A DNA stretch of 64,000 bases, taken from assembly GCF_005877005.1 (NCBI RefSeq), contig NZ_SSNH01000001.1, positions 620,001 through 684,000 of the forward strand, given 5' to 3'. This document shows positions 31,832 through 49,699 of this stretch, one piece after another. The first letter of the stretch is position 1; each line of letters begins with the position of its first letter. The DNA comes from Sinomonas susongensis. GTDB lineage: Bacteria > Actinomycetota > Actinomycetes > Actinomycetales > Micrococcaceae. Made by a program: the position numbers and the translations under genes. The notes below the pieces were generated by a model, which worked only from the letters and a program-made list of their open reading frames with translations, did not search any database and was not told the origin of the DNA.

Positions 31832-31963
31832 CCGATTATAGAACCGGCTGGGGTGCCGTGACAGAGGCTGCGCTCAGTGTGACGTCCTGCCCGATCGCAG
31901 AGGAAGCGACCTGAAGCGTCCTACGGCACAGGACGCGCAGAGGAAGGCCCAGGAGGTGTGACG

Positions 31964-32494: not shown

Positions 32495-32542
32495 CCCCCG
32501 ACGATCCTCCAGGTCCAACCATCCGACGACGGGAGAAGCACC

Positions 32543-34052: not shown

Positions 34053-34081
34053 GCGCGTCGAGCCTTCAGCCGCGCGTCGAG
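34044..34081. repeat. Two 19-bp direct repeats over the gntR stop
   Basis: CCTTCAGCCGCGCGTCGAG occurs twice in tandem. The second copy contains the last codons and stop of the GntR gene (TCA at 34066-34068), and the first overlaps the terminator arm. Confidence 0.88.
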
Positions 34082-34764: not shown

Positions 34765-34778
34765 ATCCTATCGGATAT
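34765..34778 (-). promoter_or_regulatory. GntR operator copy 1 (autoregulatory) overlapping -10
   Basis: ATCCTATCGGATAT on the plus strand. On the minus strand its TAGGAT half lies exactly 6 nt before the GntR ATG. It differs by one base from the three other copies. Confidence 0.75.
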
Positions 34779-34809
34779 GGGCTCGAAGACTCGGGCGGAA
34801 GAGCTCTGG

Positions 34810-36183
34810 CTAGTGGTGCATCACGGGTTCCTCCAGCAGCTCGTCGGACTTCGGAGCGCGGAAGAACTTGGTGAGGAAGACCATCGCCGCGGCGACGAAT
34901 GCGAAGACGCCGAGCGAGACCACGCCCCACTCGCCGCTGGCGGTGGGAACGGCTGCGTTGATGGCCGTGCGCATGAGCGGAGCGACGAAGCCGCCGAGGT
35001 TGCCGAGCGAATTGATGAGCCCGATGCCTGCGGCCGCCGCAGCGCCCGTGAGGAACGACGTCGGGTACGCCCACGTGATGGGGCCAACCGAGAGGAAGCT
35101 CGCGACGGCGAGGGTGATGAACACGATGCCGAGCAGCGGCTGCCCGCTTACGCCGGCCCACGCCGACGCCACGATGAAGAGCCCTGTTCCGATGTAGAGG
35201 AGCGTTCCCCAGTTGCGGCGGCGGGCGATGGTGTTGGCCGCGCGGCCGAGGTAGTAGCAGGCGAACAGGCCGACGAGCCACGGGATGGCAGAGACGAGGC
35301 CGACCTCCCAGCCGACCTTCTTGCCGAGAAGGCCCGCGACCTCTTGGGGGAGGTAGAACGTCGTCCCGTACACCGCGATCTGGAGGGCGAAGTAGATGAC
35401 GGTGAAGTACCAGACCTTCCAGTTCGCCATGGCCGCCCAGATGCCCTTCGGGCCGTCCTGGCTGCGGGCGCGGTCCTCGAGGGCCATCGCATCGGAGAGC
35501 GCGAGCTTCTCGCCGTCGTCGAGGAACTTCGCCTTCGACGGGCTGTTGGTGAGGAGGAACAGGGCGGCGATTCCGGCGACGACGGCGAGGAGGCCCTCGC
35601 CGAGGAACATGACCTGCCACCCGCGGGCGAAGCCCAGGGAGTCGCCGAAGCTGATGAGGCCGCCGCTGAGCGGGGCGCCGATCATCTGCGAGAACGGCTG
35701 GGCGAGGTAGAAGATCGCGAACATCTGCACGCGCACCTTGTTCGGGAACCACTCCGAGAGGTACATGATGACCCCGGGGAACAGGCCGGCCTCGGTCACG
35801 CCGAGCAGGAAGCGCAGGACGTTGAACATGACGTCGTTGGTCGTGAACGCGAAGCACGCCGCCACGATGCCCCAGGTGATCGAGATGCGGGCGAGCCAGA
35901 ACCGTGCCCCGAACCGCTTGAGCAGGAGGTTGCTCGGCACCTCGAAGATGGCGTAGCCGATGAAGAAGATGCCGGCCCCGAGGGCGAAGGCAGCGTCGCC
36001 GACGCCGCGGTCGGCCTTCAGTGCAGCCTGCGCGAAGCCGACGTTGGTGCGGTCGAGGAACGCGACGAAATAGAGGATGACGAGCATCGGCATGAGATGC
36101 CGGGCGGCCTTGGAGATGGCGGACTTGAGCTTCGCGTCGTGGGTCGACGGCGCGGTCAAGGACACATCAGCGGGCATGGACAC
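34810..36183 (-). CDS. MFS transporter, ACS family (anion:cation symporter), sugar-acid importer
   Basis: A 457-residue permease with 12 helices. LYFVAFLDRTNVGFAQAAL in helix 1 and its loop, and the EAGLFPGVIMYLSEWFPNKVR segment, mark the ACS (tartrate/hexuronate/phthalate) family. Context suggests a tetronate- or pentonate-like acid. GTG 36183 has AAGGAG 7 nt upstream; ATG 36177 is an alternative. The open frame further upstream crosses repeats and is not believed. Confidence 0.88.
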   Translation of the reverse strand: MSMPADVSLTAPSTHDAKLKSAISKAARHLMPMLVILYFVAFLDRTNVGFAQAALKADRGVGDAAFALGAGIFFIGYAIFEVPSNLLLKRFGARFWLARISITWGIVAACFAFTTNDVMFNVLRFLLGVTEAGLFPGVIMYLSEWFPNKVRVQMFAIFYLAQPFSQMIGAPLSGGLISFGDSLGFARGWQVMFLGEGLLAVVAGIAALFLLTNSPSKAKFLDDGEKLALSDAMALEDRARSQDGPKGIWAAMANWKVWYFTVIYFALQIAVYGTTFYLPQEVAGLLGKKVGWEVGLVSAIPWLVGLFACYYLGRAANTIARRRNWGTLLYIGTGLFIVASAWAGVSGQPLLGIVFITLAVASFLSVGPITWAYPTSFLTGAAAAAGIGLINSLGNLGGFVAPLMRTAINAAVPTASGEWGVVSLGVFAFVAAAMVFLTKFFRAPKSDELLEEPVMHH

Positions 36184-36246
36184 TTCAGCTCTCCTTCGAG
36201 TTGAACTTCTGGGCCGTGCTTCTTGGGTTGGTTTCGTTGATTTGGA

Positions 36247-36276
36247 CTTCGTCGGGACGTGCTTCGTCGGGACGTG
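36247..36276. repeat. Two 15-bp direct repeats before the MFS gene
   Basis: CTTCGTCGGGACGTG is present twice in tandem in the 171-bp gap between the SDR and MFS genes, upstream of the MFS ribosome binding site. Confidence 0.8.
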
Positions 36277-36283
36277 CTTCTTC

Positions 36284-36309
36284 AAGCCGGGCTCCTTCGA
36301 GCCCGGCTT
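36284..36309 (-). terminator. Hairpin between SDR and MFS genes
   Basis: A perfect 11-bp stem (AAGCCGGGCTC / GAGCCCGGCTT) with a 4-nt loop lies 46 bp after the SDR stop. It may end or attenuate the SDR transcript, separating expression of the importer. Confidence 0.75.
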
Positions 36310-36354
36310 CTCGCCAGGGACCTGGCTATGAGGGAAGCCAGTGCATGACGAAGG

Positions 36355-37122
36355 TCAGTGCATGTAGAGGCCGCCGTCGACGTTGAGCGTCTGACCGGTC
36401 ACGAATCCGGCGTCCTCGCTGATGAGGTACGCGATGGCCGCCGCGATGTCGCGCGGGGTCCCGATCCGCGGCAGGACGCCGTCGGCCGCCATCTTCGCCT
36501 TGCGCTCCTCGGTGAGGGTGCCGCCCATGATGTCGGTGTCGATAGGGCCGGGCGAGATCACGTTGACCGTGATGCCGTCCTGGCCGAGCTCGCGGGCCAC
36601 GCTCCGCGAGAAGCCGATGATGCCGGCCTTCGCAGCCGAATAGACCGTCTTGCTGTAGGTGCCGCCGCCGCGCTGCGCCGAGACGGACGAGAGGCTCACA
36701 ACCCGGCCGACGCCGTGCTTGACCATGGACTCGACCGCTCGGTGGGTCGCATAGTGCACGCCGTTGAGGTTGATGTTGATCACCCGGTTCCACTCCTCGG
36801 GGGTGACCTCGAGGTACGGGACCGGCGAGGAGACGCCCGCGAGGTTCACGAGCGCGACCACCTGGGGGAGGGTGCCCTCGAGCTCGTCGAACGCCGCCCG
36901 AACCTGCTCTTCGTTCGAGACGTCCGCGCCCGCGCCGGCGGCCTGGACGCCGTGTTCGAGGGCGATTTCCTCGGCGACGCGCTTCGCGGCCTCGGCGTCG
37001 ATGTCGATGATGCCGATGTTCCACCCGCGCTCGGCGAGGTAGTGGGCAGTCGCGCGGCCGATGCCCCGCGGGGAGGCTGCACCCGTGAGGATCGCAGTGC
37101 GGGCTTCGGGGAATGCTGTCAT
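36355..37122 (-). CDS. SDR family oxidoreductase
   Basis: A 255-residue classical short-chain dehydrogenase. The cofactor motif is TGAASPRGIGRA with IIDID after strand 2 (NAD preference), the catalytic Ser lies in SLSSVSAQ and the Tyr/Lys in YSAAKAG. In this operon it probably oxidises a sugar alcohol, aldose or sugar acid. 17 bp separate it from the upstream dehydrogenase gene; AAGGAG precedes the ATG. Confidence 0.88.
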   Translation of the reverse strand: MTAFPEARTAILTGAASPRGIGRATAHYLAERGWNIGIIDIDAEAAKRVAEEIALEHGVQAAGAGADVSNEEQVRAAFDELEGTLPQVVALVNLAGVSSPVPYLEVTPEEWNRVININLNGVHYATHRAVESMVKHGVGRVVSLSSVSAQRGGGTYSKTVYSAAKAGIIGFSRSVARELGQDGITVNVISPGPIDTDIMGGTLTEERKAKMAADGVLPRIGTPRDIAAAIAYLISEDAGFVTGQTLNVDGGLYMH

Positions 37123-37138
37123 AGCGGACTCTCCTTGG

Positions 37139-38161
37139 TCAGTTTCCGGATTCTGCGGAATCGGCGTGGATGGGCGCCGGCCCCAGCTCGTCCATGAGCT
37201 TCTTGATGGCGACGTAGGCCTTGTTGCGGTAGGCGACCAGCTCGGGGATCCGCTCGGCGGGGACGTCGAGGTAGCCGGCTCCGGACTTCGTCCCGAACTT
37301 GCCGGCGTCGACGAGCTTGCGCAGCGACTCGGGAGTCGCGAAGCGCTCGGGCCAGCGGGTCTGGAGCGAGGCGTAGCAGAAGGCATAGACGTCGAGGCCG
37401 GCCATGTCCGCGATCGCGAACGGACCGAAGGCGGGGAGGCGGAAGCCGAACGTGGTGCGGACGATCGTGTCGATGTCCTCGGGCGTCGCGATGCCCTCCT
37501 CGACGATCTGGGTCGCCTCGTGGAACAGCGCGTACTGGAGCCGGTTGAGCACGAAGCCCGTCGCATCCTTGACGCGCGCGCTCTCCTTGCCCGTAGAGGC
37601 AACGAGCGCTTCTACGAGCGGGATGACGGCCTCATCGGTCGTGGCGTGCGGGATGAGCTCGACGCCCGGGATGAACGGGGCCGGGTTGGAGAAATGGACG
37701 CCCAGGAAGCGCTCGGGCCGCTCGACGGCAGTCGCGAGCTCGGCGATGCGGATGGTGGACGTGTTGGAGCCGATCACGGCGTCGGGACGGGCGGCGGCGC
37801 TGATCCGCCGGAGCGTCTCGTGCTTGATCTCGATCTTCTCGGGGACGGCCTCCTCGATGAAGTCAGCGTCCGCGACAGCGTCCTCGATGGACGGCGCGGG
37901 GGAGACGTTCGCACGGATGCGCTCGACGGCGTCTGCCGGGAAGAGGCCCTGCTCGGCGAACTCGGCTGCCTCGGCGAGGAGGCGGTCGTAGTTCTTCCGG
38001 GCGATCTCCTCGGAGATGTCCGCGATCTTGACGGTCGAGCCGGCAAGGGCGAGGGACTGCGCGATGCCCCCTCCCATGTAGCCGGAGCCGACGACGGCGA
38101 TCCGGTGCTGCGCCGACTGTGTCTGGACCGCTTGGGGCTGGGCCTCAGGGTTCGTTGTCAT
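37139..38161 (-). CDS. 3-hydroxyacyl-CoA-dehydrogenase-like NAD enzyme (possible sugar-acid 3-dehydrogenase)
   Basis: A 340-residue two-domain dehydrogenase: Rossmann fold (IAVVGSGYMGGGIAQSLA), SNTSTIRIAEL and HFSNPAPFIPGVELIP, then the helical C-terminal domain (FVLNRLQYALFHEA). Monofunctional members include 3-hydroxybutyryl-CoA, carnitine and L-gulonate 3-dehydrogenases. With sugar-acid genes on both sides, oxidation of a C3 hydroxyl of an aldonate is more likely than acyl-CoA metabolism, but this is inference. Start ATG 38161. Confidence 0.8.
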   Translation of the reverse strand: MTTNPEAQPQAVQTQSAQHRIAVVGSGYMGGGIAQSLALAGSTVKIADISEEIARKNYDRLLAEAAEFAEQGLFPADAVERIRANVSPAPSIEDAVADADFIEEAVPEKIEIKHETLRRISAAARPDAVIGSNTSTIRIAELATAVERPERFLGVHFSNPAPFIPGVELIPHATTDEAVIPLVEALVASTGKESARVKDATGFVLNRLQYALFHEATQIVEEGIATPEDIDTIVRTTFGFRLPAFGPFAIADMAGLDVYAFCYASLQTRWPERFATPESLRKLVDAGKFGTKSGAGYLDVPAERIPELVAYRNKAYVAIKKLMDELGPAPIHADSAESGN

Positions 38162-38175
38162 GCTGGGGTTCCTTC

Positions 38176-39111
38176 CTAGGCCTTGGGCAGCAGCGAGCGG
38201 ATGTACTTCTGATTCGTGGCGCACACGCCCAGGCTGTCCCCGCCGTACTGCTCGGTGAGGATGATCCCGTTGAAGCCGAGCTTCACGGCGTCGCGGAACA
38301 CCTGGCGGTAGTTGATGAGGCCGGCCTCCATGGTCGAGGGCACGGAGGTCGCCCAGCTGCCGTCGGCCGCCTCGTCGCGGGTGTAGTTCTTGACGTGCCA
38401 GTAGTTGGCGTAGGGGAGCGTCTTCGCGTACAGCTCGCGCCAGTCCTCCACGGGGCGGTGGAGGCGGATGAGGTTCGCGACGTCAGGGTTCAGGCCGACA
38501 TTGTCCAGGCCGACCTCTTCGACGAACCGCACAGCGCTGTCTGCCGTGCCGAGGTAGGTGTCCTCGTAGAGCTCGAGGGAGACGGGCAGCCCGACTTCGG
38601 CCGCGTGCTTGCCGAGTTCGCGGATGCGGCGGACGGCGAGTTCCCACGTCTCGCGGTCGTCTGGATCCTTGGGCCCCTCGGCAGTCCAGAACCACAGGGC
38701 TCTGCGCTGGGCTTCGCTGAAAGGCTGGTGCAGGCCGGTCGAGAAGACCTTCATGCCCCACTCGGCGGCCGCGTCGATGGTCCGGTGGGCGTACTCGAGG
38801 TTCCGCTCCTCGTGGCCGGGCATGATGACGCTCTGCCGCTGCAGGTGGACGGAGGGGATGCCGACGCCGTGGGACGCGGCGATCTGGAGGAACTCGTCGC
38901 GGCGTGATGGCGAGAGGTCCGCCGGTCGGACGTGGCTGTCGGCGAGTTCGGCGAGGTTGAAGCCGACCTCCTCGATCTGGGCGAACATGTCGTCCCAGAC
39001 CTCGGGCTCGGCGTCGTGCATTCTGACGCCGTTGGCATCGGCTGCGGGGAAGCCGTGGAGGCAGGTCGCAATCGGCCAGGTTTCGGCGGTGTAGTGAGGA
39101 TTCTCCGGCAT
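38176..39111 (-). CDS. Sugar phosphate isomerase/epimerase-type TIM barrel protein (OiaC- or OtnI-like)
   Basis: A 311-residue xylose-isomerase-like TIM barrel. Candidate metal ligands are in LPVSLELYEDT (Glu), GLNPDVANL (Asp), YWHVKNY (His) and ILTEQYGG (Glu), spaced as in this superfamily. Family members with sugar-acid kinases and L-erythrulose kinases include 3-oxo-isoapionate decarboxylase (OiaC) and 2-oxo-tetronate isomerase (OtnI); it is longer than typical OtnI. The exact reaction is not settled. First gene after operator copy 2; GGAG precedes its ATG. Confidence 0.78.
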   Translation of the reverse strand: MPENPHYTAETWPIATCLHGFPAADANGVRMHDAEPEVWDDMFAQIEEVGFNLAELADSHVRPADLSPSRRDEFLQIAASHGVGIPSVHLQRQSVIMPGHEERNLEYAHRTIDAAAEWGMKVFSTGLHQPFSEAQRRALWFWTAEGPKDPDDRETWELAVRRIRELGKHAAEVGLPVSLELYEDTYLGTADSAVRFVEEVGLDNVGLNPDVANLIRLHRPVEDWRELYAKTLPYANYWHVKNYTRDEAADGSWATSVPSTMEAGLINYRQVFRDAVKLGFNGIILTEQYGGDSLGVCATNQKYIRSLLPKA

Positions 39112-39154
39112 GATGCTCCGTTGCGTAGGGGAAGTCGATCTTCCCTGATCGTAG

Positions 39155-39168
39155 ATCCTATAGGATAT
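39155..39168 (-). promoter_or_regulatory. GntR operator copy 2
   Basis: ATCCTATAGGATAT, 44 bp upstream of the ATG of the TIM-barrel gene. Minus-strand TAGGAT within it may be the -10; alternatively TACGAT (39148-39153) with TTCACT 17 bp upstream brackets the operator. Confidence 0.78.
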
Positions 39169-39206
39169 AGAGTGAACTAAGTCACCCGGGAAGTCAAGGT
39201 GACGTT

Positions 39207-40124
39207 TCAGACTATAAGGTCGGTTCCCCGCAGCTCCGGTGCGAGGACCCGGATGACGGCGGAATCGTCCTCCGCCTCGAGCCCCATCGACCGGCCTACG
39301 AGGAACAGCTGCTCTGCCGCCGCGGCGACGGGTGTCGGGAGCCCGGCAGCCCGCGCGGCGTCGCCCACGATGCCCAGGTCCTTCACGAAGATGTCGAGGC
39401 GGCTCAGCACGGCCGCGCCCCCGTCGTCGTACGCATCGAGCATCCGGCGGCCGCGATCTTCCAGCATGAACGAGTTCGCGGCACCCGCCGTGAGGGCGTC
39501 GAGGGTGCGTGCCCGGTCGAGCCCGAGCGCGTCCGCGAGGGCGAGCGCCTCGGCCGCCGCCGCGATGTGCACGCCGCACAGGAGCTGGTTGACCGTCTTG
39601 AGCGCCTGGCCGTCCCCTGCGCGGTCGCCGACGACCGAGAGCGTCGAGGCCAGCAGGTCGAGCACGGGGCGGGCACGGGCGAGAGCAGACGGGGGCGCCC
39701 CCACGACGACGAGGAGGTCTCCGTTCCCTGCGCGGACCGGACCGCCCGAGAGCGGAGCATCCACGAGCTCGACTCCGGATTCGGCCAGGCGCTCGGAGGC
39801 GCCGGCCACGGCTTCGGTTCCGACCGTGCTCGTGAGGATCACGACGGCGCCGCGTGCGAGCCCGGGGGCTATGCCCGCCTCGCCGAACAGGGCATCCTCG
39901 AGCTGCGCGCCGTTGCGGACCGCGAGCAGGACGCCGTCCGCCCCCTTGGCTGCTTCCCCCGCCGAACCGAACGTCTCGATGCCGGCCTCGCGCGCAAGGG
40001 CGAGGCGTTCCTCGGAGATGTCGAAGCCCCGGACGTCGAGGCGGGTCGCGAGCCGGGTGGCCATGGGAAGGCCCATGGCGCCGAGCCCGAGGACCGCGAC
40101 CGTGAAGTTGCTGGAGTCAGTCAT
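39207..40124 (-). CDS. 3-hydroxyisobutyrate-dehydrogenase family enzyme, L-threonate dehydrogenase-like
   Basis: A 305-residue beta-hydroxyacid dehydrogenase. GLGAMGLPMATRL (NAD), VDAPLSGGPVRAGNGDLLV (substrate loop) and the catalytic Lys in LKTVNQLL are intact. This is the pattern of LtnD-type enzymes that oxidise C2 of four-carbon aldonates, and it overlaps a DUF1537 kinase gene by 8 nt, the association used to define LtnD/DenD. A small hairpin (39181-39203) follows its stop. Confidence 0.85.
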   Translation of the reverse strand: MTDSSNFTVAVLGLGAMGLPMATRLATRLDVRGFDISEERLALAREAGIETFGSAGEAAKGADGVLLAVRNGAQLEDALFGEAGIAPGLARGAVVILTSTVGTEAVAGASERLAESGVELVDAPLSGGPVRAGNGDLLVVVGAPPSALARARPVLDLLASTLSVVGDRAGDGQALKTVNQLLCGVHIAAAAEALALADALGLDRARTLDALTAGAANSFMLEDRGRRMLDAYDDGGAAVLSRLDIFVKDLGIVGDAARAAGLPTPVAAAAEQLFLVGRSMGLEAEDDSAVIRVLAPELRGTDLIV

Positions 40125-41691
40125 CGATGAGTTCCTTCTGGCTGCTGGGTGTGCCGTCTGCGTCTGTGCCGTCTGCGCCGGATATGCCGTGTGCACCGGA
40201 TATGCGCCCGCTGAGCTTGCCGACCACGTCGGCGAGGGACGCGTCGTCGCCGACGTTTCCCGCGAAGACGACGTAGGGGATGCCGAGGGCGGGGCCGTCC
40301 ATGGGCTCCCAGAGCGAGACGATTCCGGGGAGCATGGGGCCGCGGACCATTGCGCGGCGGATCCCGAGCCCATGGGCGGCGACGTCCGACGACGTGATGC
40401 CTCCCTTGGCCACGACGAACCGGGGCCGCACGGCCGCGATCGTCTGGCGTACGACCTCGACGAGGCTCGCCGAGACGCGGCGGGCAATCGCGAGGCTCCC
40501 CGCGGCGTCGGCGGCCGTGACCAGGGTGCGGCTCGTGTGCACGACGACGTCGCCCGTCGCGAGCGCCGCGGCAACGCGGCCTGCGGTCTCTGCGACGTGG
40601 GCGCCGTCGTCCGAGAGGACGCGTTCGACGTCGAGCTCGACGACCTGCACGGACGGGAGCCGCTGCAGGAGGGCCTCGAGCTGGCGGGTCGTCTGACCCA
40701 CGTGGGAGCCGACGACGACGAGGCCGCCGTGCTCCGGGGCGTCACCGCCGAGGGCCTCATCCGAGCTGAGCGGCGCCCGGACCTCTTGGCCGATCCGGCC
40801 CCGCACGAACGGTGGGCCGACACGGTAGACGAGCTTCTTGCCGCGCCGCTCGGCCTCTGCGAGGCCGAGGGCGAGGCGTCGGAAGTCGTTCTCGGTCACG
40901 ATGTCGACGGCGATCGGGGTGCGCTCCGCGGCAGGCTCCAGCGCATCGGCTATCGCGATCGCGCTCTGCTCCGGGGTCCCGGTGCGCAGGATCGCGAGAT
41001 CGAGGACGATGACCGTGCCTGCGGGATAGCGTCCTCCCGACTTCTCCTGGACGTACTCGGCGAGGCTCGAGCTGGAGTAGCCGAAGGTCGCATCGCGGGC
41101 GAACTCGGTCTCGGCGACGGGCGTGAGCGCCCCGGAGCCGCTGCGGGTGTAGTGCGTGCCGCCGATGGTCACCCGGCCTGCGTCGGGAAAGGCCGGGACG
41201 ATGACCACCCCGTCGGTCGCGCGCCCGTCCTGCGCTTCGAGGGTCTCGGCGATCGTGTCCGTCTCGAGCGGAAAGTGGCCGCGCAGGGTCGAGTCGCTGC
41301 GGCTCGTGAAGGCGAGTTCGAGATCCAGATCCTCGGCGGCGGCGAGGGCGTTCGTGACAACCGCGCGGTTCCGCTCGGCCGCCTCCGCCGGATCGAGGCT
41401 GCGCGTGTTCGTGAGCACGTAGACCGCCGCCGGGCGGCGTACGCCGTCGTGCCTGCCGTTGCCGGCGGGCGCGGGCTCGGACACTCCTAGCGCGAAGGCC
41501 CAGCGGAAGTCCTCAGGCTCCCATGCTGTGAGGACGGGCAGGTCGGCGACGGACTGCGTTCCCGTCGGGTCGTCGTCGAGCACGACGAGGACCCGCTTCG
41601 AGGCGGAGACTGAATCCGCGACCAGGCCGGCTGGCACGGGGACGTCGTCGGGGAAGTTCGCGAGCAGCGCTTCTTCGAGGATCACAGGCAC
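40117..41691 (-). CDS. Four-carbon acid sugar kinase family protein (DUF1537)
   Basis: A 524-residue kinase. VLVVLDDDPTGTQSVADLPVLT is the N-terminal sugar-acid-binding motif, YVLTNTRSLDP and LAFTSRSDSTLRGHFPLE follow, and FVVAKGGITSSDVAAHGLGI is the C-terminal nucleotide-binding motif. Relatives phosphorylate 3-oxo-tetronate (OtnK), D-threonate (DtnK) or 3-oxo-isoapionate (OiaK). It is longer than OtnK. Start GTG 41691 or 41685, no ATG fits. The C-terminal tail (GAHGISGADGTDADGTPSS) comes from short DNA repeats at 40151-40203. Confidence 0.85.
   Translation of the reverse strand: MPVILEEALLANFPDDVPVPAGLVADSVSASKRVLVVLDDDPTGTQSVADLPVLTAWEPEDFRWAFALGVSEPAPAGNGRHDGVRRPAAVYVLTNTRSLDPAEAAERNRAVVTNALAAAEDLDLELAFTSRSDSTLRGHFPLETDTIAETLEAQDGRATDGVVIVPAFPDAGRVTIGGTHYTRSGSGALTPVAETEFARDATFGYSSSSLAEYVQEKSGGRYPAGTVIVLDLAILRTGTPEQSAIAIADALEPAAERTPIAVDIVTENDFRRLALGLAEAERRGKKLVYRVGPPFVRGRIGQEVRAPLSSDEALGGDAPEHGGLVVVGSHVGQTTRQLEALLQRLPSVQVVELDVERVLSDDGAHVAETAGRVAAALATGDVVVHTSRTLVTAADAAGSLAIARRVSASLVEVVRQTIAAVRPRFVVAKGGITSSDVAAHGLGIRRAMVRGPMLPGIVSLWEPMDGPALGIPYVVFAGNVGDDASLADVVGKLSGRISGAHGISGADGTDADGTPSSQKELIDD
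40151..40203. repeat. 15- and 18-bp repeats in the 3' end of the DUF1537 kinase gene
   Basis: GTGCCGTCTGCG starts two 15-bp units (40151, 40166), and GCCGTCTGCGCCGGATAT / GCCGTGTGCACCGGATAT form an 18-bp tandem pair (40168, 40186). They encode the repetitive C-terminal tail. Confidence 0.8.
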
Positions 41692-41726
41692 CTCATCGTG
41701 AAGGGGAAGGTTGACAGGAAGCAGTT

Positions 41727-42503
41727 CTAGGCCGTCCTCGCGGCCTCGACAGCAAGGACCTCGTCGAGGATCTCGCCCAGGGCCTCGACGCGGTGGGCGA
41801 AGCGGCCGAGGAACAGCCCGTCGACGTCGTCCGCGATCTCGCTGAGCATCCCGGGCCGGGCGCTCCCGCCGTAGATGACACGCGAGCCGGCGGAATGCGG
41901 GGACGACTTCAGATGGAGGCGAAGGCCCTCGCAGACGGATCGGATGTGCTCGGGCTCGGCTGGGGCTTCCGCGCCGATCGCCCAATGGGGCTCGTAGGCG
42001 ACAGTGACGGTGGCCTCGCGGCCAGCCTCACGGGCCGACGCGAGGGCATCGTCCACCTGGCGCACGCACTCGCGCACCGCGGCGGCTGGCTCCCCGCGCT
42101 GCGCCTCGCCGACGCAGAGGATCGGCGTGAGCCCGTTGCGGAGCGCGGCGTCCGTCTTGGCGCGGACGACGGCGTCCGTCTCCCCGAAGAGTCGCCGGCG
42201 CTCGGCATGGCCGACCTCGACCAGGCGGCACCCGACCTCCGCTATTTCGGCGCCGCTGACCTCGCCGGTGAACGCACCCTCGTCCGCTGCCGCGAGGTCC
42301 TGGGCGCCGACCGCGGCGAGGCCGCGGAGGATGCCCACCGCGGCCGGCACGGAGAGGTAGCTGGGGACGACGAACAGTTCGACCGTGCCCTCACGCACGG
42401 CTCGGTGCGACCGGGCGAGCTCCGCGACTTCACTGCACCACTCGACGGTCCTCGCGTGGCTGAAGTACATCTTGAGGCTCACCCCGACGAGGTACGGCGC
42501 CAA
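41727..42503 (-). CDS. Triosephosphate-isomerase-family protein (LerI/EryH-like tetrulose-phosphate isomerase)
   Basis: A 258-residue TIM barrel. Lys in GVSLKMYFS, His in VEVGHAERRRLFGE, Glu in VAYEPHWAIG and the phosphate loop VIYGGSARP are all present, so it is catalytically competent. Differences from glycolytic TPI (SLKMYF for NWKMN, EPHWAIG for EPVWAIG) and the neighbours point to isomerisation of L-erythrulose-1-phosphate to D-erythrulose-4-phosphate. Start is probably TTG 42503, one nucleotide after the RpiB stop; other starts would cut strand 1. Confidence 0.85.
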   Translation of the reverse strand: MAPYLVGVSLKMYFSHARTVEWCSEVAELARSHRAVREGTVELFVVPSYLSVPAAVGILRGLAAVGAQDLAAADEGAFTGEVSGAEIAEVGCRLVEVGHAERRRLFGETDAVVRAKTDAALRNGLTPILCVGEAQRGEPAAAVRECVRQVDDALASAREAGREATVTVAYEPHWAIGAEAPAEPEHIRSVCEGLRLHLKSSPHSAGSRVIYGGSARPGMLSEIADDVDGLFLGRFAHRVEALGEILDEVLAVEAARTA

Positions 42504-42504
42504 G

Positions 42505-42963
42505 TCAGACGCCCTCGTAGGCGCAGAGCTCCTGGACCTTCTCGTTCGAGGGGCTTGACTCGTCGAATTCGTACGTGAGCCATTCGCGCACGTTCCGCCG
42601 CGCGAGTTCGAGCCCCACCACACGCTGGCCCATGCACAGCACCTGCGCGTTGTTGGAGAGCACCGAGCGCTCGACCGAGAAGGAATCGTGGGCGGTGACC
42701 GCGCGGATTCCCGGAACCTTGTTCGCGGCGATCGCGACGCCGAGGCCCGTTCCGCAGATGAGGACCGCGCGGTCCGCCTCGCCCCGGGCCACGATCTCCG
42801 CCGCCGTCGTTGCGATGGTCGGATAGTTCGTGTGGCCCTCGGCGGTCACGCCCACGTCCGTGACCGAGACGACGAGGTCGCTTCCCTCGAGGTCCTTCTT
42901 GATGGCTTCCTTGTATTCGAAGCCGGCATCATCGGAGCCGACGACGATTCGCCACTGTGGCAT
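42505..42963 (-). CDS. RpiB/LacAB-family isomerase (DerI/EryI-like)
   Basis: A 152-residue isomerase. [15 protein letters not shown] is the N-terminal phosphate/sugar motif (SDHAG in ordinary RpiB, here with Asp for His), [14 protein letters not shown] carries the catalytic Cys, and [18 protein letters not shown] follows. In tetritol pathways such proteins convert D-erythrulose-4-phosphate to D-erythrose-4-phosphate. Adjacent TPI-like and DhaKL genes support that role over ribose-5-phosphate isomerisation. Confidence 0.87.
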
Positions 42964-42987
42964 GGTGTCACCTTTTCTGTTGGTTTC

Positions 42988-43038
42988 TTCCCTATTGGCG
43001 CCGGTTCCCTGTTGGCGCCGGTTCCCTGTTGGCGCCGG
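42988..43038. repeat. Three 17-bp tandem repeats between dhaKL and rpiB-like genes
   Basis: TTCCCTATTGGCGCCGG (42988) and two copies of TTCCCTGTTGGCGCCGG (43005, 43022), plus a partial fourth copy up to the DhaKL stop at 43047. Confidence 0.92.
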
Positions 43039-43046
43039 CCGGTTCC

Positions 43047-44789
43047 CTACTGGGCTACGTCTGCAGTGCCGAGGCGCGAGCCGACCGTCGTCACGATGAG
43101 TGCGAGCGAGACGGCCCCGGGGTCTGGGACGCCGAGGGCCTTCTCGCCGTGCGACCGCGCCCGGCCGAGCCCGGGCATGAGGTCCGACGTGCGCTCGGCT
43201 GCTGTGTTCGCCGCCTGCGCGGCGGCCTCCCACGCCGCGGAGAGCCCGCATCCGCCCTTCACCCGGGCGGCCAGAGTGTCGGCGAAGGGCACGAGGGCGT
43301 CGACGAGCGTCTTGTCGCCCACGCGGGCCTTGCCATAGGACCGGACGGCGTCGGAGGCGGCGAGCACCCCCGCGCTGACGACCTCGGCGGAGACGGGCTC
43401 GGTGTCGCCCAGATGCGCTCCGAGGGTCCGGAGGATGACGCCCCAGAGGGCGCCGGAGGTCCCTCCAGCGTGGTCGGCCCATGCATCGCCTGCACGGGAG
43501 AGAAGCGTGCCCGCTCCGGCTCCCAGGTCGACGAGGGCCGCAGCCTCGGCCGCTGCAGACCGGGCTCCCCGCTGCATCCCGATGCCGTGGTCGCCGTCGC
43601 CGGCGATGGCGTCGATGCGGCCCAGCTCGTCGGCGTGGGCGTCGATCACCTCGCGGGTCGCGTTGAGCAGTTCGGCGATGAGCCGCGATGCCTCCTTGGA
43701 GGCGGCCGATGCGGAAGGCACGGTCGCCCGCTCGTCCGCATCGGCGTCGTCGGCCGTCGGTGAAAGCGCTGCGTGGTCCACCGCGCCGCACCGGTACGCG
43801 GGAGTGTCGGCGGGAGCGAGCCAGAGCCGTTCGAGCTCGTCGTCGAGCCACAGGAGCGTGAGCGAGACGCCCGCCATGTCGAAGCTCGTGCAGAACTCGC
43901 CGACCTGGGGGTCGACGATCGTGAGGCCGGCGGACTCGAGGAGCTCGGCCACCCGGGCGTACACGATGAAGAGCTCCTCGGACTTGACCGATCCGAGTCC
44001 ATTGAGGATGGGCACGACCCGCCCGCCTGCCTTGGCGGCTTCCGTGGGAACCTCGGCGTCGGCAAGGAGCTGGCCGACGAACAGCTCGGCGAGGCCGTCC
44101 GCCGTCGGGATGTCGGTCTCGTCGAGCCCCGGCTCACCGTGGATGCCGAGGCCAACCGCCATGCGGCCCTCGGGAACGGTGAAGAGCGGCTCGGCGGCGC
44201 CCGGCATCGTGCAGCCGGAGAAGGCGACCCCGAGCGAACGGGTCCGGTCGTTGGCGAGCCGTGCGACGCGCTCGACCCCGTCGAGGTCGTAGCCGAGCGA
44301 CGCCGCAGCACCCGCGACCTTGAAGACGGTCAGGTCCCCGGCGATGCCGCGGCGCTTCTCGGCCTCCTCGGGAGGGGCCGAGAAGATGTCGTCGGTCACG
44401 GTGACTGTGCGGCAGTCGATGCCGTCTGCGCGCAGTGCGTCCTGCGCCTCCGTGAAGTGCAGGACGTCTCCCGCGTAGTTCCCGTAGCTGAGCAGGACGC
44501 CGCGACCGCGGTGGCTCGCCCGGGCAACGGACTCGACCTGATGTGCGGACGGTGAGGCGAACAGGTTCCCCATCGCGGCACCGTGGGCGAGGCCCGGGCC
44601 CACGAGCCCGGCGAAGGCCGGGTAGTGGCCGCTCCCGCCGCCGATGACGAGCGCAACCTCGGGCTCCGCCGCCTGCGTGCTGCGGGTCACGCCGCCGTAG
44701 ACCTTGCGCACCCAGCGGCTGTTTGCGCGGACGAAGCCCTCCACCATGTCATCTGCGAAATCGGCTGGGTCGTTCCAGAGCCGTGTCAT
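43047..44789 (-). CDS. Dihydroxyacetone-kinase-type DhaK-DhaL fusion, candidate L-/D-erythrulose kinase
   Basis: A 580-residue ATP-dependent kinase. DhaK part: [31 protein letters not shown] and [12 protein letters not shown], with the His that binds the ketose. DhaL part: [16 protein letters not shown] (Mg-ATP site) and [14 protein letters not shown]. Homologues next to TPI- and RpiB-type genes phosphorylate erythrulose in mycobacteria. First gene after operator copy 3, GGAGG about 9 nt before the ATG. It ends at an array of 17-bp repeats. Confidence 0.88.
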
Positions 44790-44824
44790 GAGCTGCTGCC
44801 TCCACTCTGAGTCACTTTCCCTCG

Positions 44825-44838
44825 ATCCTATAGGATAT
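44825..44838 (-). promoter_or_regulatory. GntR operator copy 3
   Basis: ATCCTATAGGATAT, 35 bp upstream of the DhaKL ATG. Minus-strand TAGGAT in it has TTTCCA 17 bp upstream as a possible -35. Confidence 0.78.
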
Positions 44839-44948
44839 AGGAACACTTGGAAAGGCTCGCCCGAGAAGATCCGCCACCATTCTCTCCTCGTCAAGCGCCG
44901 TGCGCTCCTGTGAAGGCGCCATCGATCCGGAGAGGCCAGTCTGGACCT

Positions 44949-45647
44949 ATGGCTGACACCGCCTTCAGGGCCGCACCTCCCACCCTCCGCCTCCGGGCAC
45001 GCGGCACAGCAGATCGGTCCCGTTCCGCGGGCCACCACGCCAGATGGGCCGCAGCGGCCGCCGGGGGCGGCGTTGCCGCCCACCTGGCGATGGTGGCCTC
45101 GGGCGGCCTCATGGCTTGGGCCGCGGTCGTCATGGCAGCGGCCTGCGCCCCCTGCGCCTGGAGCATGTGGCGCGCGCCGTCGCTGCGCTCGGCCCGCATC
45201 CTCGTGGGCATGTCGCTCGGAATGGCCCTTCTGCACGGAGCGCTGCTGCTCGGCGTCACGCCGGGGATGGCCCAGGCGGGGATGGCTCACGCGGGGATGG
45301 CTCACGCGGGGATGGGGCAAGCCGGGATGGCCCACTCCGGGTCCGGCCACGCCGGAACAGCCCCAGCGCAGACGGCGGTTCCGTCCGCCAGCCCCGGACC
45401 GTCGTCGTCCGCCGTCGGACCCGGATCCTCGGATCCTGCCGACGGCGAGCTCTCGATGCTTGCCGTCGTCGGCGCGGACTTCGCGGCCGCCATGCTGGCT
45501 GCGAGCTGGATCCGGCGGTCGTCGTCCCTCGCGACGACCCGAGTTCAGGGCCAGGGCCGAGGGGCCAGCCTCAGGCCTCGACGCCGCGGCCGGCGGGAGC
45601 CGTGCTCGACCAGCTCATGCCGTTCCCGCGCAGTGCCGTCCTTGTGA
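44949..45647 (+). CDS. Small membrane protein with Met/His-rich repeat
   Basis: A 232-residue protein, not assigned to a family I can name with confidence. Four hydrophobic segments are visible (about residues 40-60, 60-80, 90-105 and 175-190). Between the third and fourth lies GMAQAGMAHAGMAHAG and continuing GMGQAGMAHSGSGHAG, built by 15-bp DNA repeats; Met/His spacing resembles copper-binding segments of DUF5134-like proteins. The start ATG has CAGTCT 6 nt upstream. The last 77 bp overlap the convergent FAH gene. The basic C-terminus after residue 195 may be an artefact of this overlap. Confidence 0.6.
   Translation: MADTAFRAAPPTLRLRARGTADRSRSAGHHARWAAAAAGGGVAAHLAMVASGGLMAWAAVVMAAACAPCAWSMWRAPSLRSARILVGMSLGMALLHGALLLGVTPGMAQAGMAHAGMAHAGMGQAGMAHSGSGHAGTAPAQTAVPSASPGPSSSAVGPGSSDPADGELSMLAVVGADFAAAMLAASWIRRSSSLATTRVQGQGRGASLRPRRRGRREPCSTSSCRSRAVPSL
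45261..45335 (+). repeat. Five 15-bp in-frame repeats encoding GMAHA-like units
   Basis: Units of GCGGGGATGGCTCAC type start at 45261, 45276, 45291, 45306 and 45321 within the membrane protein gene. Confidence 0.9.
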
Positions 45648-46794
45648 GATAGGCGAAGAACTCGCCCAGGCCGTACTCCCACGGCGGAAGGTCCTCGCAC
45701 CGCCCCACGACGTTGGCGAGCGTCCCGAGCCTCGGGCTCGAGATCGCCACGCGGTCCCCGACCTGATGGGTGAAGCCCTTCCCCGGTTCACCGCGGTCCT
45801 GTACGGGTGCGAAGAGGGTCCCGGTGAAGAGCGCGAAGCCGTCGGGGTACTGGTGGTGGCGGCCGACCGTGGCCGAGATGAGCTCCTCGAACGGCCTGCT
45901 GATGTGGGCGAGGCTGTTCCGCCCTTCGAGGCGGAAGCCATCCGCGCCGAGCACATCGAGCAGGATTTCCTCGTTCCGCAGTGAGTCGAGCGTGAAGCTG
46001 CCGTCGAAGAGGCGGATGAAGGGGCCCAGGGCGCAGGACGCGTTGTTGTCCTTGGCCTTTCCGAGCAGGAGGGCGCTTCGCCCCTCGATGTCGCGAAGGT
46101 TGACGTCGTTGCCCAAGGCGGCGCCCACCGCGCGGCCGTCAGGAGCGACGACGAGGACGAGCTCGGGCTCCGGGTTGTTCCACTCCGACGCGTCCAGGAT
46201 CCCGATCTTCGCCCCGTGGCCCACGGACGCGAGCACCGGGGCCTTGCTGAACACCTCGGGATCCTTCCCGATGCCGACTTCGAGGTACTGGGACCACAGG
46301 CCTTCCTCCTTGAGGACGGCCTTCGCCTTCTCAGCCTCGGCGCTGCCCGGGCGCACCCCGTCGAGGCTGCCGCCCAGTGCCGCGCCCACCCGCTCGCGGA
46401 GCTGGGCCGCCCTAGCGGGGTCGCCCGCGGCGCGCTCCTCGATGACGCGCTCGATCATGCTCTCCACGAACGTCACGCCACACGCCTTGACCACTTGGAG
46501 GTCGATCGGTGCGAGCACATGCGGGCGCGAGCGGTCGCCCGCCTCGGCTGCCTCGACCACTTCGGCCGTGGACCAGCGCGGTGCGTCGTGGCGGGCGACG
46601 GCGCGGCGGACGACGTCGGCCGGGTCGGGTGTGGCGAGGAGGCCAGCCACCGTGGGTGCCCCCTCCTGGAGGTCGTAGACGTCCCGTCCCCGGACCGCGA
46701 CGACGCGCGGCCCGCCGGCCTCGGGATCCCAGACTCGGCCGACGAGGACCGCGGCGTCCGCGTCCTCGGGCAGGATGTTCTCGAGCTCCGTCAT
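45571..46794 (-). CDS. Fumarylacetoacetate-hydrolase family 2-keto-3-deoxy sugar acid dehydratase
   Basis: A 407-residue member of the long FAH type. KACGVTFVESMIERVIEERA, EVFSKAPVLASVGHGAKIGI, EWNNPEPELVLVVAP (metal ligand Glu pair) and ALGNDVNLRDIEGRSALLLGKAKDNN are typical of 2-keto-3-deoxy-pentonate dehydratases that make 2,5-dioxopentanoate. The adjacent NADP-type aldehyde dehydrogenase acts on that product. Hydrolysis of a 2,4-diketo-3-deoxy acid is the alternative. Overlaps the dehydrogenase gene as ATGA. Confidence 0.85.
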   Translation of the reverse strand: MTELENILPEDADAAVLVGRVWDPEAGGPRVVAVRGRDVYDLQEGAPTVAGLLATPDPADVVRRAVARHDAPRWSTAEVVEAAEAGDRSRPHVLAPIDLQVVKACGVTFVESMIERVIEERAAGDPARAAQLRERVGAALGGSLDGVRPGSAEAEKAKAVLKEEGLWSQYLEVGIGKDPEVFSKAPVLASVGHGAKIGILDASEWNNPEPELVLVVAPDGRAVGAALGNDVNLRDIEGRSALLLGKAKDNNASCALGPFIRLFDGSFTLDSLRNEEILLDVLGADGFRLEGRNSLAHISRPFEELISATVGRHHQYPDGFALFTGTLFAPVQDRGEPGKGFTHQVGDRVAISSPRLGTLANVVGRCEDLPPWEYGLGEFFAYLTRTALRGNGMSWSSTAPAGRGVEA

Positions 46795-48305
46795 TCTGCC
46801 TCTCCCTGTCCTATCTCCGGCCGCTTCCATACGCCGTCGACCCTTTGCGGGACGCGCCACGGGTTGGCGTCCCGCAGCGGCTCGGGCAGCCGATCCTCGG
46901 GCCACCCCTGGAAGGCAACGGCGCGCAGGAAGCGGCGGATGGCCGCAGTCCCGACCGAGGTCGTGTTGCTCGACGTCGCGGGGTAGGGGCCGCCGTGATG
47001 CTGGGCGTAGCTGACGGTCACGCCCGTGGGCCATTCGTTCCAGAGGACGCGCCCGCTGCGCTCGACGAGCCTCTCGGCCAGCTGCCCCGTGAGCTCGCCG
47101 GGCGTGGGGGAGACGTCGTCGGCCGTTCCCTGGATCGCCGTCGTGAGCTGCCCTTCAAGCAGGCCGACGAGCCGGAGGAGCTCGTCGTCGTCGGAATAGC
47201 GCACCACGAGGCTGGCCGGCCCGAACATCTCGCGGCGGAGCAGTTCGGGGTCGGCGAAGGCGGCGCCTGCCTCGGCCTCGAGGACGGTCGGCTCCGGTGC
47301 CGGGCCGAAGCTGCCCGGGATCAGGGTGCGAACGCCCTCGAGCGACGACATGGCGTCGACAGCCTTCTCGTAGCCGGCGGCCAGGTGCTCGCTGAGGAGC
47401 GGGTGGCGGGTGACCCCGCGAAGCGCCTCGCGGAGGGGCTGTTCGAGCTCCTCGTCCTCGCCGGCGGGGACGAACAGCAGGCCGGGCTTCGTGCAGAACT
47501 GCCCCATGCCCAACGTGAAGGAGCCCACGTACTGGGAGAGCACCTCGCTGCGGCGCTTCTGCCACGCGCTGGGCGTGACGACCACGGCGTTGATCCCGCC
47601 GAGCTCGCCGTAGAACGGGATGGGCTCGGGGCGCTTGGCCGCAAGGTCCATGAGGGCGCGTCCGCCTGCGGTCGAGCCCGTGAAGCCGATCGCCTTGACG
47701 AGGGGATGCTGGACGAGCTGAATGCCGGCTTCGCGTCCCGTGACGAGGCCGAAGAGGCCCGTCGGCGCACCCGCCGCCTCGAGGCCGCGGACGACGGCGG
47801 CGGCCGTCAGGACGGCGAGTTCGGGGTGGGCTTCGTGGCCCTTGTGCACGACGGCGCAGCCGGCCGCGAGCGCCGAGGCGGTGTCGCCGCCGGCGACGCT
47901 GAACGCGAACGGGAAGTTGGAGGCCCCGAACACGCCGACGACTCCGAGCGGGACATTCATCCGGCGGATGTCGGGGCGGGGGCCCATGCCCCACTGGGGA
48001 TCGGCGTGGTCGATGGTCGCGTCCAGGTGTTCCCCGGCCCGGATCTCGGCTGCGAAGAGCCGCAGCTGGAAGACGCTGCGGCGCAGTTCACCCGTGAGCC
48101 TCTGCTCGGCGAGGTGCGTTTCCCGTGACGCGACCTCGACGAGCGCTTCCGCGTCGGCCTCGAGTGCGGACGCCACCGAATCGAGCCACTCGGACCTCGT
48201 CCTCGGATCCGCGCTCCTGCCCTCGAGGAAGGCCCGGTGGGCCGCCTCGACGGTCTCGGCGAGATCTGCCGCCGTCGTCTGCTCTCTGATCGCGCCCTGG
48301 CTCAT
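46791..48305 (-). CDS. Aldehyde dehydrogenase, 2,5-dioxovalerate (alpha-ketoglutarate semialdehyde) type
   Basis: A 504-residue NADP-preferring aldehyde dehydrogenase. [24 protein letters not shown] is characteristic of the KGSADH group, [13 protein letters not shown] is the cofactor loop, [10 protein letters not shown] holds the catalytic Glu and [12 protein letters not shown] the catalytic Cys. It yields 2-oxoglutarate. It overlaps fucD and the FAH gene by 4 nt each, so the three are one operon. Confidence 0.9.
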
Positions 48306-49642
48306 CGCGCGTCTCCCGCCAGGCTCGGGGAGGAGACGGCAGCGCGTGACCCGACCTCGAGCCAGCCTGGCCCGGACGGGAACTCCCAGCGCTCGCGGGA
48401 GGCTGCGAGGATCTCGGCCCCCGTGCCTGGGCGCTGGGGCGCGAGGTATCTGCCGCGGTCGATCCGGACGGGGTCGGCAAAGTGCTCGTGGAGGTGGTCG
48501 ACGTACTCGATCATGCGGTCCTCCTGGGTTCCGGAGACGGCCGCGTAGTCGAAGAACGAGAAGTGCTGGACGAGCTCGCAGAGCCCGACGCCGCCGGCGT
48601 GCGGGCAGACGGCCACGCCGAACTGGGCCGCGAGGAGGACGTTGGCGATGTTCTCGTTCACGCCGGCGACCCTCGTGGAGTCGATCTGGAGGACGTCGAT
48701 CGCGCCGGCCTGCAGGAGCTGCTTCACGACGATCCTGTTGGCCACTGCCTCGCCGGTCGCGACCCGGATCGGGGAGACGCCCTTCCGGATGGCGGCATGG
48801 CCGAGGATGTCGTCCGTGCTCGTCGGCTCTTCGATCCAGTACGGCTCGAACTCCGCGAGCGCCTTGACCCATTCGATGGCTTCGGGGACGTCCCAGCGCT
48901 GGTTGGCGTCGATGGCGATGGGCAGCGTGCCCACGGCCCCTCTCGCGAGGCCGAGGCGGCGGCGGTCGTCCTCGACGCTTCCGCCGACCTTGAGCTTGAT
49001 CATGGAGAAGCCGTCGGCGACGGCTTCCCGGCTGAGCCGCACGAGCTTCTCGTCGCTGTAGCCGAGCCAGCCCGGCGAGGTCGTGTAGGCAGGGTAGCCG
49101 TCCGACTGGAGCGCTGCGATCCGCTCTTCCTTGCCGGACTGCCCGGCCCGCAGGAGGTCGAGTGCCTGGGCGGGGGAGAGGGCGTCCGAGATGTGGGTGA
49201 AGTCGATGACGTCGACGATCTCCTCCGGGCTCAGCTCGCTCAGGAGAAGCCAGAGCGGCTTGCCCTCGCGGCGGGCCCTGAGGTCCCACAGCGCGTTGAC
49301 GAGTGCGCCGCATGCCATGTGGCTCACCCCCTTCTCCGGGCCGAGCCAGCGGAGCTGGGAATCGTGGACGAGGCGTCGGGACGCCTCGCCGAGGTCGGCC
49401 ACGAGGGCGTCGGCGTCGAGGCCGGTCAGCAGCTCGCCGTAGGACTGGATGGCTCTGACCACGATTTCGTTGCCGCGACCGCCCGTGAAGACGAAGCCAT
49501 GGCCCTCTTCGCCTGCATCCGTGCGGATGACGACGTAGGCGGCCGAGTAGTCCGGGTCGACGTTGACGGCGTCGGAGCCGTCGAGCTCGAGCGAGGTGGG
49601 GAAGCGGATGTCCTGAGTCGTGATGGAGGAGATGCGGGCCAT
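48302..49642 (-). CDS. fucD: L-fuconate dehydratase-type enolase superfamily enzyme
   Basis: A 446-residue enzyme strongly resembling L-fuconate dehydratase: [60 protein letters not shown]. Catalytic parts are KLKVG (Lys), IDANQRWD (Asp), IEEPTS (Glu), ATGEAV (Glu) and [15 protein letters not shown] (His). It removes water from L-fuconate or the related D-arabinonate/L-galactonate. With downstream KGSADH and FAH genes a C5 acid such as D-arabinonate is favoured. First gene after operator copy 4. Confidence 0.9.
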
Positions 49643-49685
49643 GGGACTCCCTCGTCGTTGGGGTGCTGATCCTTGTCAGCTACTG

Positions 49686-49699
49686 ATCCTATAGGATAT
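49686..49699 (-). promoter_or_regulatory. GntR operator copy 4
   Basis: ATCCTATAGGATAT, 44 bp upstream of the fucD ATG, identical to copies 2 and 3. TAGGAT inside it may serve as -10. Confidence 0.78.

Follow-up and report, generated by a model that had tools for sequence, protein, structure and literature searches.

We analysed a stretch of 64,000 nucleotides of the Sinomonas susongensis genome (positions 620,001 to 684,000 of contig NZ_SSNH01000001.1; hereafter, the window), in which a short palindrome precedes the gene for a GntR-type regulator and three rows of putative sugar-acid catabolic genes. All four gene rows lie on the minus strand, with one site before the first gene of each, and the gene order suggests that each row is transcribed as a single unit. 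The genes and sites are listed below by window position; the functions and the operators are predictions.

34066 to 34758, minus strand: tGntR, FCD-type GntR regulator of 230 amino acids that may repress all four promoters (Pfam matches to GntR and FCD exceed the cut-offs)
34765 to 34770, minus strand: TAGGAT, the gntR-proximal half-site, where a leaderless -10 box (TANNNT) would lie; 37 of 50 orthologues have it there
34765 to 34776, no strand: operator O1 (ATCCTATCGGAT), one change relative to ATCCTATAGGAT, 6 nucleotides (nt) before the gntR ATG
34810 to 36177, minus strand: MFS transporter (Pfam MFS_1; the best NCBIfam match is a D-galactonate transporter model, below cut-off)
36355 to 37122, minus strand: SDR dehydrogenase (Pfam adh_short_C2)
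37139 to 38161, minus strand: HCDH, protein with a 3-hydroxyacyl-CoA-dehydrogenase fold, candidate sugar-acid 3-dehydrogenase (Pfam 3HCDH_N and 3HCDH; role inferred)
38176 to 39111, minus strand: TIMx, xylose-isomerase-like TIM-barrel protein, first gene of its operon (Pfam AP_endonuc_2; PDB 5tnv)
39155 to 39166, no strand: operator O2 (ATCCTATAGGAT), before TIMx-HCDH-SDR-MFS
39207 to 40124, minus strand: LtnD-like dehydrogenase (NCBIfam L-threonate dehydrogenase NF043037, below cut-off)
40117 to 41685, minus strand: OtnK-type acid-sugar kinase (Pfam SBD_N and NBD_C), whose family we take to be the one named DUF1537
41727 to 42503, minus strand: triose-phosphate-isomerase (TPI) homologue, candidate tetrulose-phosphate isomerase (Pfam TIM; role inferred)
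42505 to 42963, minus strand: RpiB-type isomerase (TIGR02133 above cut-off)
43047 to 44789, minus strand: fused DhaK-DhaL kinase (DhaKL), candidate tetrulose kinase (NF011049 above cut-off)
44825 to 44836, no strand: operator O3 (ATCCTATAGGAT), before DhaKL-RpiB-TPI-OtnK-LtnD
45571 to 46794, minus strand: FAH-family protein, candidate 2-keto-3-deoxy-acid dehydratase (Pfam FAA_hydrolase; PDB 9kkt and 2q18)
46791 to 48305, minus strand: aldehyde dehydrogenase (ALDH), candidate alpha-ketoglutarate semialdehyde dehydrogenase (Pfam Aldedh; PDB 1eyy and 3v4c, E about 1e-107)
48302 to 49642, minus strand: FucD-like enolase-superfamily sugar-acid dehydratase (Pfam MR_MLE; PDB 1yey)
49686 to 49697, no strand: operator O4 (ATCCTATAGGAT), before fucD-ALDH-FAH

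The first-pass annotation had described the repeat as a 14-bp operator with three identical copies and a fourth carrying one change. The window scan confirmed these positions: ATCCTATAGGATAT occurs on the plus strand identically at 39155, 44825 and 49686, and the copy at 34765 (ATCCTATCGGATAT) shows a single mismatch to it. The length, on the other hand, had to be corrected to 12 bp (ATCCTATAGGAT) with a 10-bp core, as the trailing AT of the 14-mer is not mirrored. When up to three mismatches to ATCCTATAGGATAT were allowed, the window yielded eight matches over both strands, all of them at the four places (shuffled controls: mean 0.14, maximum 2), in agreement with the earlier statement that it holds no further copy. 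The palindrome ends 6 nt before the start codon of gntR, 43 nt before that of the TIM-barrel gene, 35 nt before that of DhaKL and 43 nt before that of fucD; the starts used for the TIM-barrel gene (39111) and DhaKL (44789) are chosen inner ATGs, not those of the longest frames.

The annotation had also proposed that a motif occurring at random frequency in the genome would count against an operator. In the whole assembly (3,766,448 bases in 36 contigs), we found ATCCTATNGGAT at the four window places only, and the reversed-pattern control nowhere; the operator reading thus survived this check. With up to two mismatches the motif occurs at 20 places, 16 of them additional, and the reversed control at 4, so that weak look-alikes are somewhat more frequent than in the control; none of these 16 extra places contains the core TCCTATAGGA.

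We then asked how the motif is distributed in 295 genomes of the family. A match to tGntR at E <= 1e-50 was found in 55 genomes and WTCCTATAGGAW in 74, with the reversed control in eight. Both motif and regulator were present in 50 genomes, the regulator only in five, the motif only in 24 and neither in 216; thus the motif accompanies the regulator in 50 of 55 genomes with a match and occurs in 24 of the 240 others (P = 3e-32 by Fisher's test, a value that is too small as kinship is uncorrected). The five genomes with the regulator only are the five lowest-scoring (44-50% identity), and their GntRs are probably not orthologues. Restriction of the operator to this species was considered and rejected, as the motif is present in other genomes of the family, and Sinomonas humi MUSC 117 carries all four sites. 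Around the GntR matches and the motif places we fetched 58 stretches, in most of which the motif lies beside gntR and before TIMx or another operon-opening gene, a pattern that persists down to regulators 55% identical. As a control, we compared the palindrome with others of the same composition (90 in all) in the region from -150 to +12 of the 50 gntR matches in the 58 loci that exceed 200 bits: the real one, at up to one mismatch, was found within 150 bp upstream of 31 orthologues, and the best of the other 89 was found upstream of one.

Two loci further afield were noted in these surveys. A record titled Vibrio cholerae (L168, WNZI01000005.1) holds an Arthrobacter-like GntR/HCDH/DhaKL cluster and is probably mislabelled. 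In L222 (family f26, of the same class), a GntR homologue that carries Asp and Pro at its two specificity places is flanked on each side by ATCCTATAGCAT.

The placement of the sites was counted gene by gene in 52 of the 58 stretches (L112, L113 and L116-L119 were excluded). A gene was counted if its match began within 25 residues of the query start, scored at least 80 bits and had 260 bases upstream; a site was a copy between -250 and +20 with at most one mismatch, or with two if CCTATAGG was intact. We found a site before TIMx in 46 of 51 cases, GntR in 40 of 53, DhaKL in 9 of 52 and HCDH in 7 of 47, and the DhaKL and HCDH sites occur exactly in the loci where these genes open an operon. Inner genes of the same stretches are nearly site-free (MFS 1/44, SDR 0/48, TPI 0/46, RpiB 0/51). 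This indicates that the sites mark operon starts; in the window they do lie upstream of the minus-strand genes, as the earlier claim had it.

At gntR itself the layout is that of a promoter. A TANNNT box 6-8 nt before the start codon is expected for a leaderless actinobacterial promoter, and in the 37 orthologues with TAGGAT at this place the hexamer ends 6 nt (25 orthologues), 7 nt (8) or 8 nt (4) before the gntR start; in the loci L065, L066 and L067, ATCCGATAGGAT, read towards gntR, stands at the same place, 7 nt before the ATG. A repressor bound to the site would therefore cover the gntR promoter. In several relatives the distal half-site has decayed and TAGGAT is retained, which fits the expectation for a half-site that serves both RNA polymerase and repressor. 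At TIMx, a TTGACN hexamer lies within 45 nt upstream of 42 of the 46 operators, at 18-19 nt in 32 and at 25-26 nt in nine (base rate in the same loci: 326 of 9346 windows); in the window it lies 25 nt before O2. Sites so placed would suit repression by a protein lying over the core promoter.

The same layout could suggest that the repeat is a mere promoter element, in which TAGGAT is the -10 box and the likeness between copies is due to RNA polymerase. The position of TAGGAT before gntR, and its survival in several orthologues that have lost the distal half, are what this explanation predicts. A -10 box would, however, occur genome-wide, and the 12-mer is found at four places only; the distal half ATCCTA, which a -10 box does not need, recurs nevertheless, and palindromes of the same composition do not; and in 36 of the 46 TIMx copies the sequence read towards the gene is ATCCTATAGGAA, so that no TAGGAT faces it. 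We consider the promoter-element explanation extremely unlikely and have rejected the motif as a -10 box alone on these three grounds. It is also quite improbable that tGntR sits at the sites as an activator of transcription when the acid is present: the gntR site covers the presumed -10 box beside the start codon, and most TIMx sites lie downstream of the TTGACN hexamer, both of which are repressor positions.

Considering the sites, their conservation, their placement at operon starts, the layout of the gntR promoter and the co-occurrence with the regulator, all of which are read directly from the sequences, we regard the palindrome as very probably the operator of tGntR (34066-34758), through which this protein would repress its own gene and three catabolic operons. 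The four-promoter GntR regulon put forward by the first-pass annotation is thus supported, as a predicted one, by the family co-occurrence and the operon-start placement.

Several observations weigh against this reading. No site with at most one mismatch was found within 150 bp upstream of 19 of the 50 orthologues, so autoregulation is not universal, and some orthologues keep only the half that doubles as a -10 box. The motif occurs without an orthologue in 24 genomes. No site lies directly before OtnK (0/8) or LtnD (0/12) in relatives. In the window, TTGACN precedes none of O1, O3 and O4, and, given the ATCCTATAGGAA orientation of most TIMx copies, the overlap with a -10 box is shown for gntR alone among the promoters. 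Finally, the LtnD, OtnK and DerI assignments all fall below curated cut-offs: the LtnD-like dehydrogenase reached 259.1 bits against NF043037 (cut-off 350), the DUF1537-type kinase 60.8 bits against the D-threonate kinase model NF047819 (cut-off 450) and the RpiB-type isomerase 144.4 bits against the D-erythrulose-4-phosphate isomerase model NF051858 (DerI; cut-off 240). The last of these proteins does exceed the cut-off of the actinobacterial RpiB model TIGR02133 (206.5 bits against 168.2). Because of these shortfalls, chain lengths and substrates are left as candidates.

The regulator has an N-terminal GntR winged helix (PF00392, 49 bits, cut-off 27) and a C-terminal FCD domain (PF07729, 105 bits, cut-off 24.3). 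In FCD proteins, an Asp/His/His/His set commonly, if not universally, holds a metal that binds carboxylates. The corresponding residues of tGntR (D143, H147, H191 and H213) are kept in 51 of 51 cases, which would fit release by a sugar acid.

The first-pass annotation had noted that FCD-GntR proteins bind short palindromes and sense carboxylic acids; the operator here is such a palindrome, though one without the boxes usual in this family. According to Suvorova et al. 2015 (PMC4494728), operators of the FadR subfamily usually carry TKGT/ACMA boxes, with exceptions, and an Arg of the recognition helix (position 38, FadR Arg45) contacts G and is possibly a conserved feature of the family. Compared with members of this FCD subfamily such as DgoR and LldR, tGntR shares the winged helix and FCD domain, the short palindrome, the adjoining catabolic genes and the site at its own gene; it differs in that its operator has TCCT/AGGA rather than TKGT/ACMA boxes and in that it lacks the position-38 Arg. 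The GT/AC boxes are absent since the site reads TCCTATAGGA instead of TKGT-N2-ACMA, and at the place of the recognition arginine tGntR has Gln52. An alignment of 58 homologues (those above 60 bits with a readable start, among them the protein of the window; L113 contributed no row) has Pro at position 38 in 51 sequences, Gln in six, Ser in one and Arg in none. At the same place, the 16 FCD GntRs of this genome include 13 with Arg, one with Val and one with Pro (helix VSPMTARR). Thus, a protein without the arginine stands with an operator lacking the usual G.

The outer C of the operator may pair with Asp42. Pairing of an Asp at FadR position 28 with C has been suggested (PMC4494728). The alignment of Asp42 is ambiguous: a gapless count from the recognition helix places it at FadR Arg35, and the gapped MAFFT alignment pairs it with the preceding Glu. 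Among 94 loci, one of them unread, a site with at most one mismatch lies near the gene in 39 of the 61 with an acidic residue at position 28 and in 0 of the 32 with another residue, a division that follows kinship. Given the kinship and the ambiguous alignment, a clean residue-to-base rule (Asp 28 with C) was set aside and is kept as consistent only. We sought an operator for the Streptomyces homologues with Arg at position 28, and palindromes next to the remaining FCD GntR genes of the genome; neither search gave anything clear. No paper related by title to TCCTATAGGA as a GntR operator was found in the open-licence literature.

Upstream of three distant GntR homologues from Xanthobacteraceae, Ancylobacter and Tistlia (L181, L184 and L190), whose two specificity places are Asp and Gln, lies ATCGTATAGGAT, which combines a GTATAC-type with a CTATAG-type half-site. 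The upstream flank of the GntR-type gene devA of Streptomyces coelicolor holds CCTATAGG, as seen in a devA deletion oligonucleotide (PMC3187754).

The motif without an orthologue raises the question of whether the operator is read by another regulator of the genome, or by several, with tGntR as a bystander. Related GntRs do accompany it: of 19 inspected motif-only genomes, 16 have in the stretch a related FCD GntR whose position 28 is Asp or Glu, and three do not. As the same operator occurs with related GntRs, the motif by itself does not identify its regulator. For this genome, however, tGntR is the only one of the 16 FCD GntRs with a VS[QP]TP recognition helix, its gene lies within the cluster and its orthologues accompany the motif, and we consider it very unlikely that it is a bystander. 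The regulator candidate named earlier is thus upheld by the tracking of motif and gene through the 295 genomes, and qualified by the related GntRs that the motif also accompanies.

The genus Sinomonas offers a case of such sharing. In nine of 15 Sinomonas genomes the motif is present and a tGntR orthologue was not found. Five of the nine were inspected, and all have, inside the TIMx/DhaKL cluster, another GntR of 41-44% identity whose two specificity places are Asp and Pro; all five loci have the site before DhaKL, and four also have it before TIMx, which in G104 is at the stretch edge. The operator thus seems to have outlived a change of reader.

The fucD unit has a different distribution. 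FucD relatives at E <= 1e-140 occur in 73 of the 295 genomes. Surveying about 1.5 kb on each side of fucD, we found a GntR gene (fGntR) directly upstream in ten (L271-L280) of the 30 best fucD loci; these fGntRs are 65-100% identical to the GntR of L265, which is itself 33% identical to tGntR. The module adjoins the tetrulose cluster (the TIMx and DhaKL rows) in three Sinomonas genomes, namely that of the window (G000), G186 and G216, in none of which was an fGntR match found at E <= 1e-30; the site before fucD is the exact palindrome in G000 and G186 and carries one change in G216. In another Sinomonas genome (G175), the fucD module is apart from the cluster and has its own GntR. The fucD unit was thus probably not an original member of the tGntR regulon. 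The earlier assignment of the fucD operon to the regulon stands in so far as an exact operator precedes fucD; the operon is probably a later recruit, with a GntR of its own in ten of the 30 best loci.

The copy at 49686 might instead be a leftover of the lost fGntR that tGntR does not read. This explanation draws on two of the ten fGntR-linked modules, those of G175 and G028, which by eye carry TTCCTATAGGAT itself. The other eight (L272-L275 and L277-L280), also judged by eye, have a different, double imperfect site before fucD, of the type TTCCTATATGA...TCATATAGGAA, and the modules adjoining the cluster in G000 and G186, genomes that gave no fGntR match at E <= 1e-30, have the exact tGntR palindrome. 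We therefore think it unlikely that the copy is such a leftover. The simplest history, in our view, would be that a module with a compatible operator moved beside the cluster, lost its regulator and came under tGntR; the reverse history of the move would be the alternative. The fucD case is probably a regulon merger and, as such, a new observation from sequence comparison.

The regulon core is kept across genera and consists of TIMx, DhaKL, RpiB, HCDH and TPI, often with SDR and MFS. On a Sinorhizobium plasmid, the TIMx homologue adjoins a DhaKL homologue and a PdxA-type dehydrogenase, with no HCDH annotated nearby. A kinase and isomerase route to erythrose 4-phosphate is part of the erythritol and apionate pathways; the catabolism of tetritols and erythrulose and that of D-apionate reportedly use enzymes of the LerK-LerI-DerI type (Huang and colleagues in 2015 and Carter and colleagues in 2018 are said to have described them). 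The cluster resembles these systems in that a DhaKL-type kinase stands together with TPI-like and RpiB-type isomerases, and differs by the added HCDH-fold dehydrogenase and TIM-barrel protein, whose roles are candidates. A sugar acid would thus be oxidised and decarboxylated to a tetrulose, which the kinase and isomerases would convert to erythrose 4-phosphate. A regulator or operator for a tetrulose-type cluster was not found in the open-licence literature, judged from listings.

The LtnD-like dehydrogenase gene overlaps the DUF1537-type kinase gene, as in the L-threonate/D-threonate pathway with LtnD and a DUF1537 kinase that Zhang and colleagues reportedly described in 2016; the present cluster differs in that both proteins are below the curated equivalog cut-offs and in that the 13 cluster proteins scanned include no aldolase-type decarboxylase partner. 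In three loci of another genus (L256, L258 and L259), the OtnK-LtnD homologues adjoin the MFS end of the TIMx row, so that the way in which this tetronate pair was joined to the cluster varies.

In the fucD unit, the FucD-like protein is a close homologue of the solved L-fuconate dehydratase 1yey (E 1.8e-178); its neighbours would suit other aldonates as well as L-fuconate. The FAH protein matches the FAH-family structure 9kkt strongly (E 1.5e-113) and 2-keto-3-deoxy-D-arabinonate dehydratase 2q18 weakly (E 3.9e-19), and none of the 25 NCBIfam families listed for the aldehyde dehydrogenase reached its cut-off. The Weimberg-type scheme is a non-phosphorylative sugar-acid pathway, and the FAH matches may suit a route of this type to alpha-ketoglutarate. 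As in that pathway, a dehydratase, a candidate 2-keto-3-deoxy-acid dehydratase and an aldehyde dehydrogenase stand in one row; what differs is that the module's own GntR, directly upstream in ten of the 30 best fucD loci, was not found here and that the operator is that of the tetrulose genes. The regulon would hold, as the first-pass annotation proposed, two sugar-acid pathways of different chain length.

From these comparisons we infer binding, repression, effector, substrates and the direction of recruitment as follows. Most likely, a tGntR dimer binds over the core promoters of gntR and of the three catabolic operons and represses them. Its release would follow when the metal site formed by Asp/His/His/His in the FCD domain takes up a carboxylate intermediate, which is probably a C4 or C5 sugar acid in acyclic form. 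The older, central part of the regulon would be the tetrulose pathway, in which HCDH and the TIM-barrel protein may convert the sugar acid to a four-carbon ketose, to be phosphorylated and isomerised towards erythrose 4-phosphate by DhaKL, the TPI homologue and RpiB. LtnD-OtnK would be an add-on for a tetronate, and the fucD-ALDH-FAH unit would have been recruited later; its former regulator was not found here.

A GntR operator regulon is in itself ordinary; what goes beyond routine is its unusual code, together with the swaps of regulator and the probable merger. On balance, we favour with some reserve a broader account, in which a branch of FCD GntRs dropped the recognition arginine and reads CC-TATA-GG in place of GT/AC, a code shared by several paralogues. 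The Sinomonas tetrulose cluster would stand under one or the other of two GntRs with about 42% identity, and in three species the tetrulose repressor would have captured a pentonate-type module that had lost its GntR. Because the code is shared, pathways could exchange regulators and keep their operators. The predicted operator is a testable one for sugar-acid genes of soil actinobacteria whose substrates remain candidates, and the named candidate repressor could serve to find these substrates. Sinomonas also provides a natural series within one genus, in which one cluster stands under two different regulators and one module either has or lacks a regulator of its own; such a series suits the study of changes in the DNA code of a repressor family and of the transfer of operons between repressors.

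Three further features of the neighbourhood were noted. At 30960-33994, adjoining the regulon, the gene for an IclR-type regulator is oriented divergently from those for a flavin reductase and an HpaB-type 4-hydroxyphenylacetate 3-monooxygenase, which together form a separate aromatic catabolic unit. Opposite the DhaKL promoter, an open reading frame on the plus strand (44949-45647), with no Pfam match, contains short GGGATGGCTCACGC-like repeats near 45270-45340. Just past the window end (contig C1 684396-684420; L123:8397-8421), two ATCGTATACGAT palindromes stand head to tail, 1 nt apart, and resemble the operator of another GntR-type regulator; an FCD GntR lies nearby, with its domain at window positions 62200-62574 and with Ser and Val at the two specificity places.

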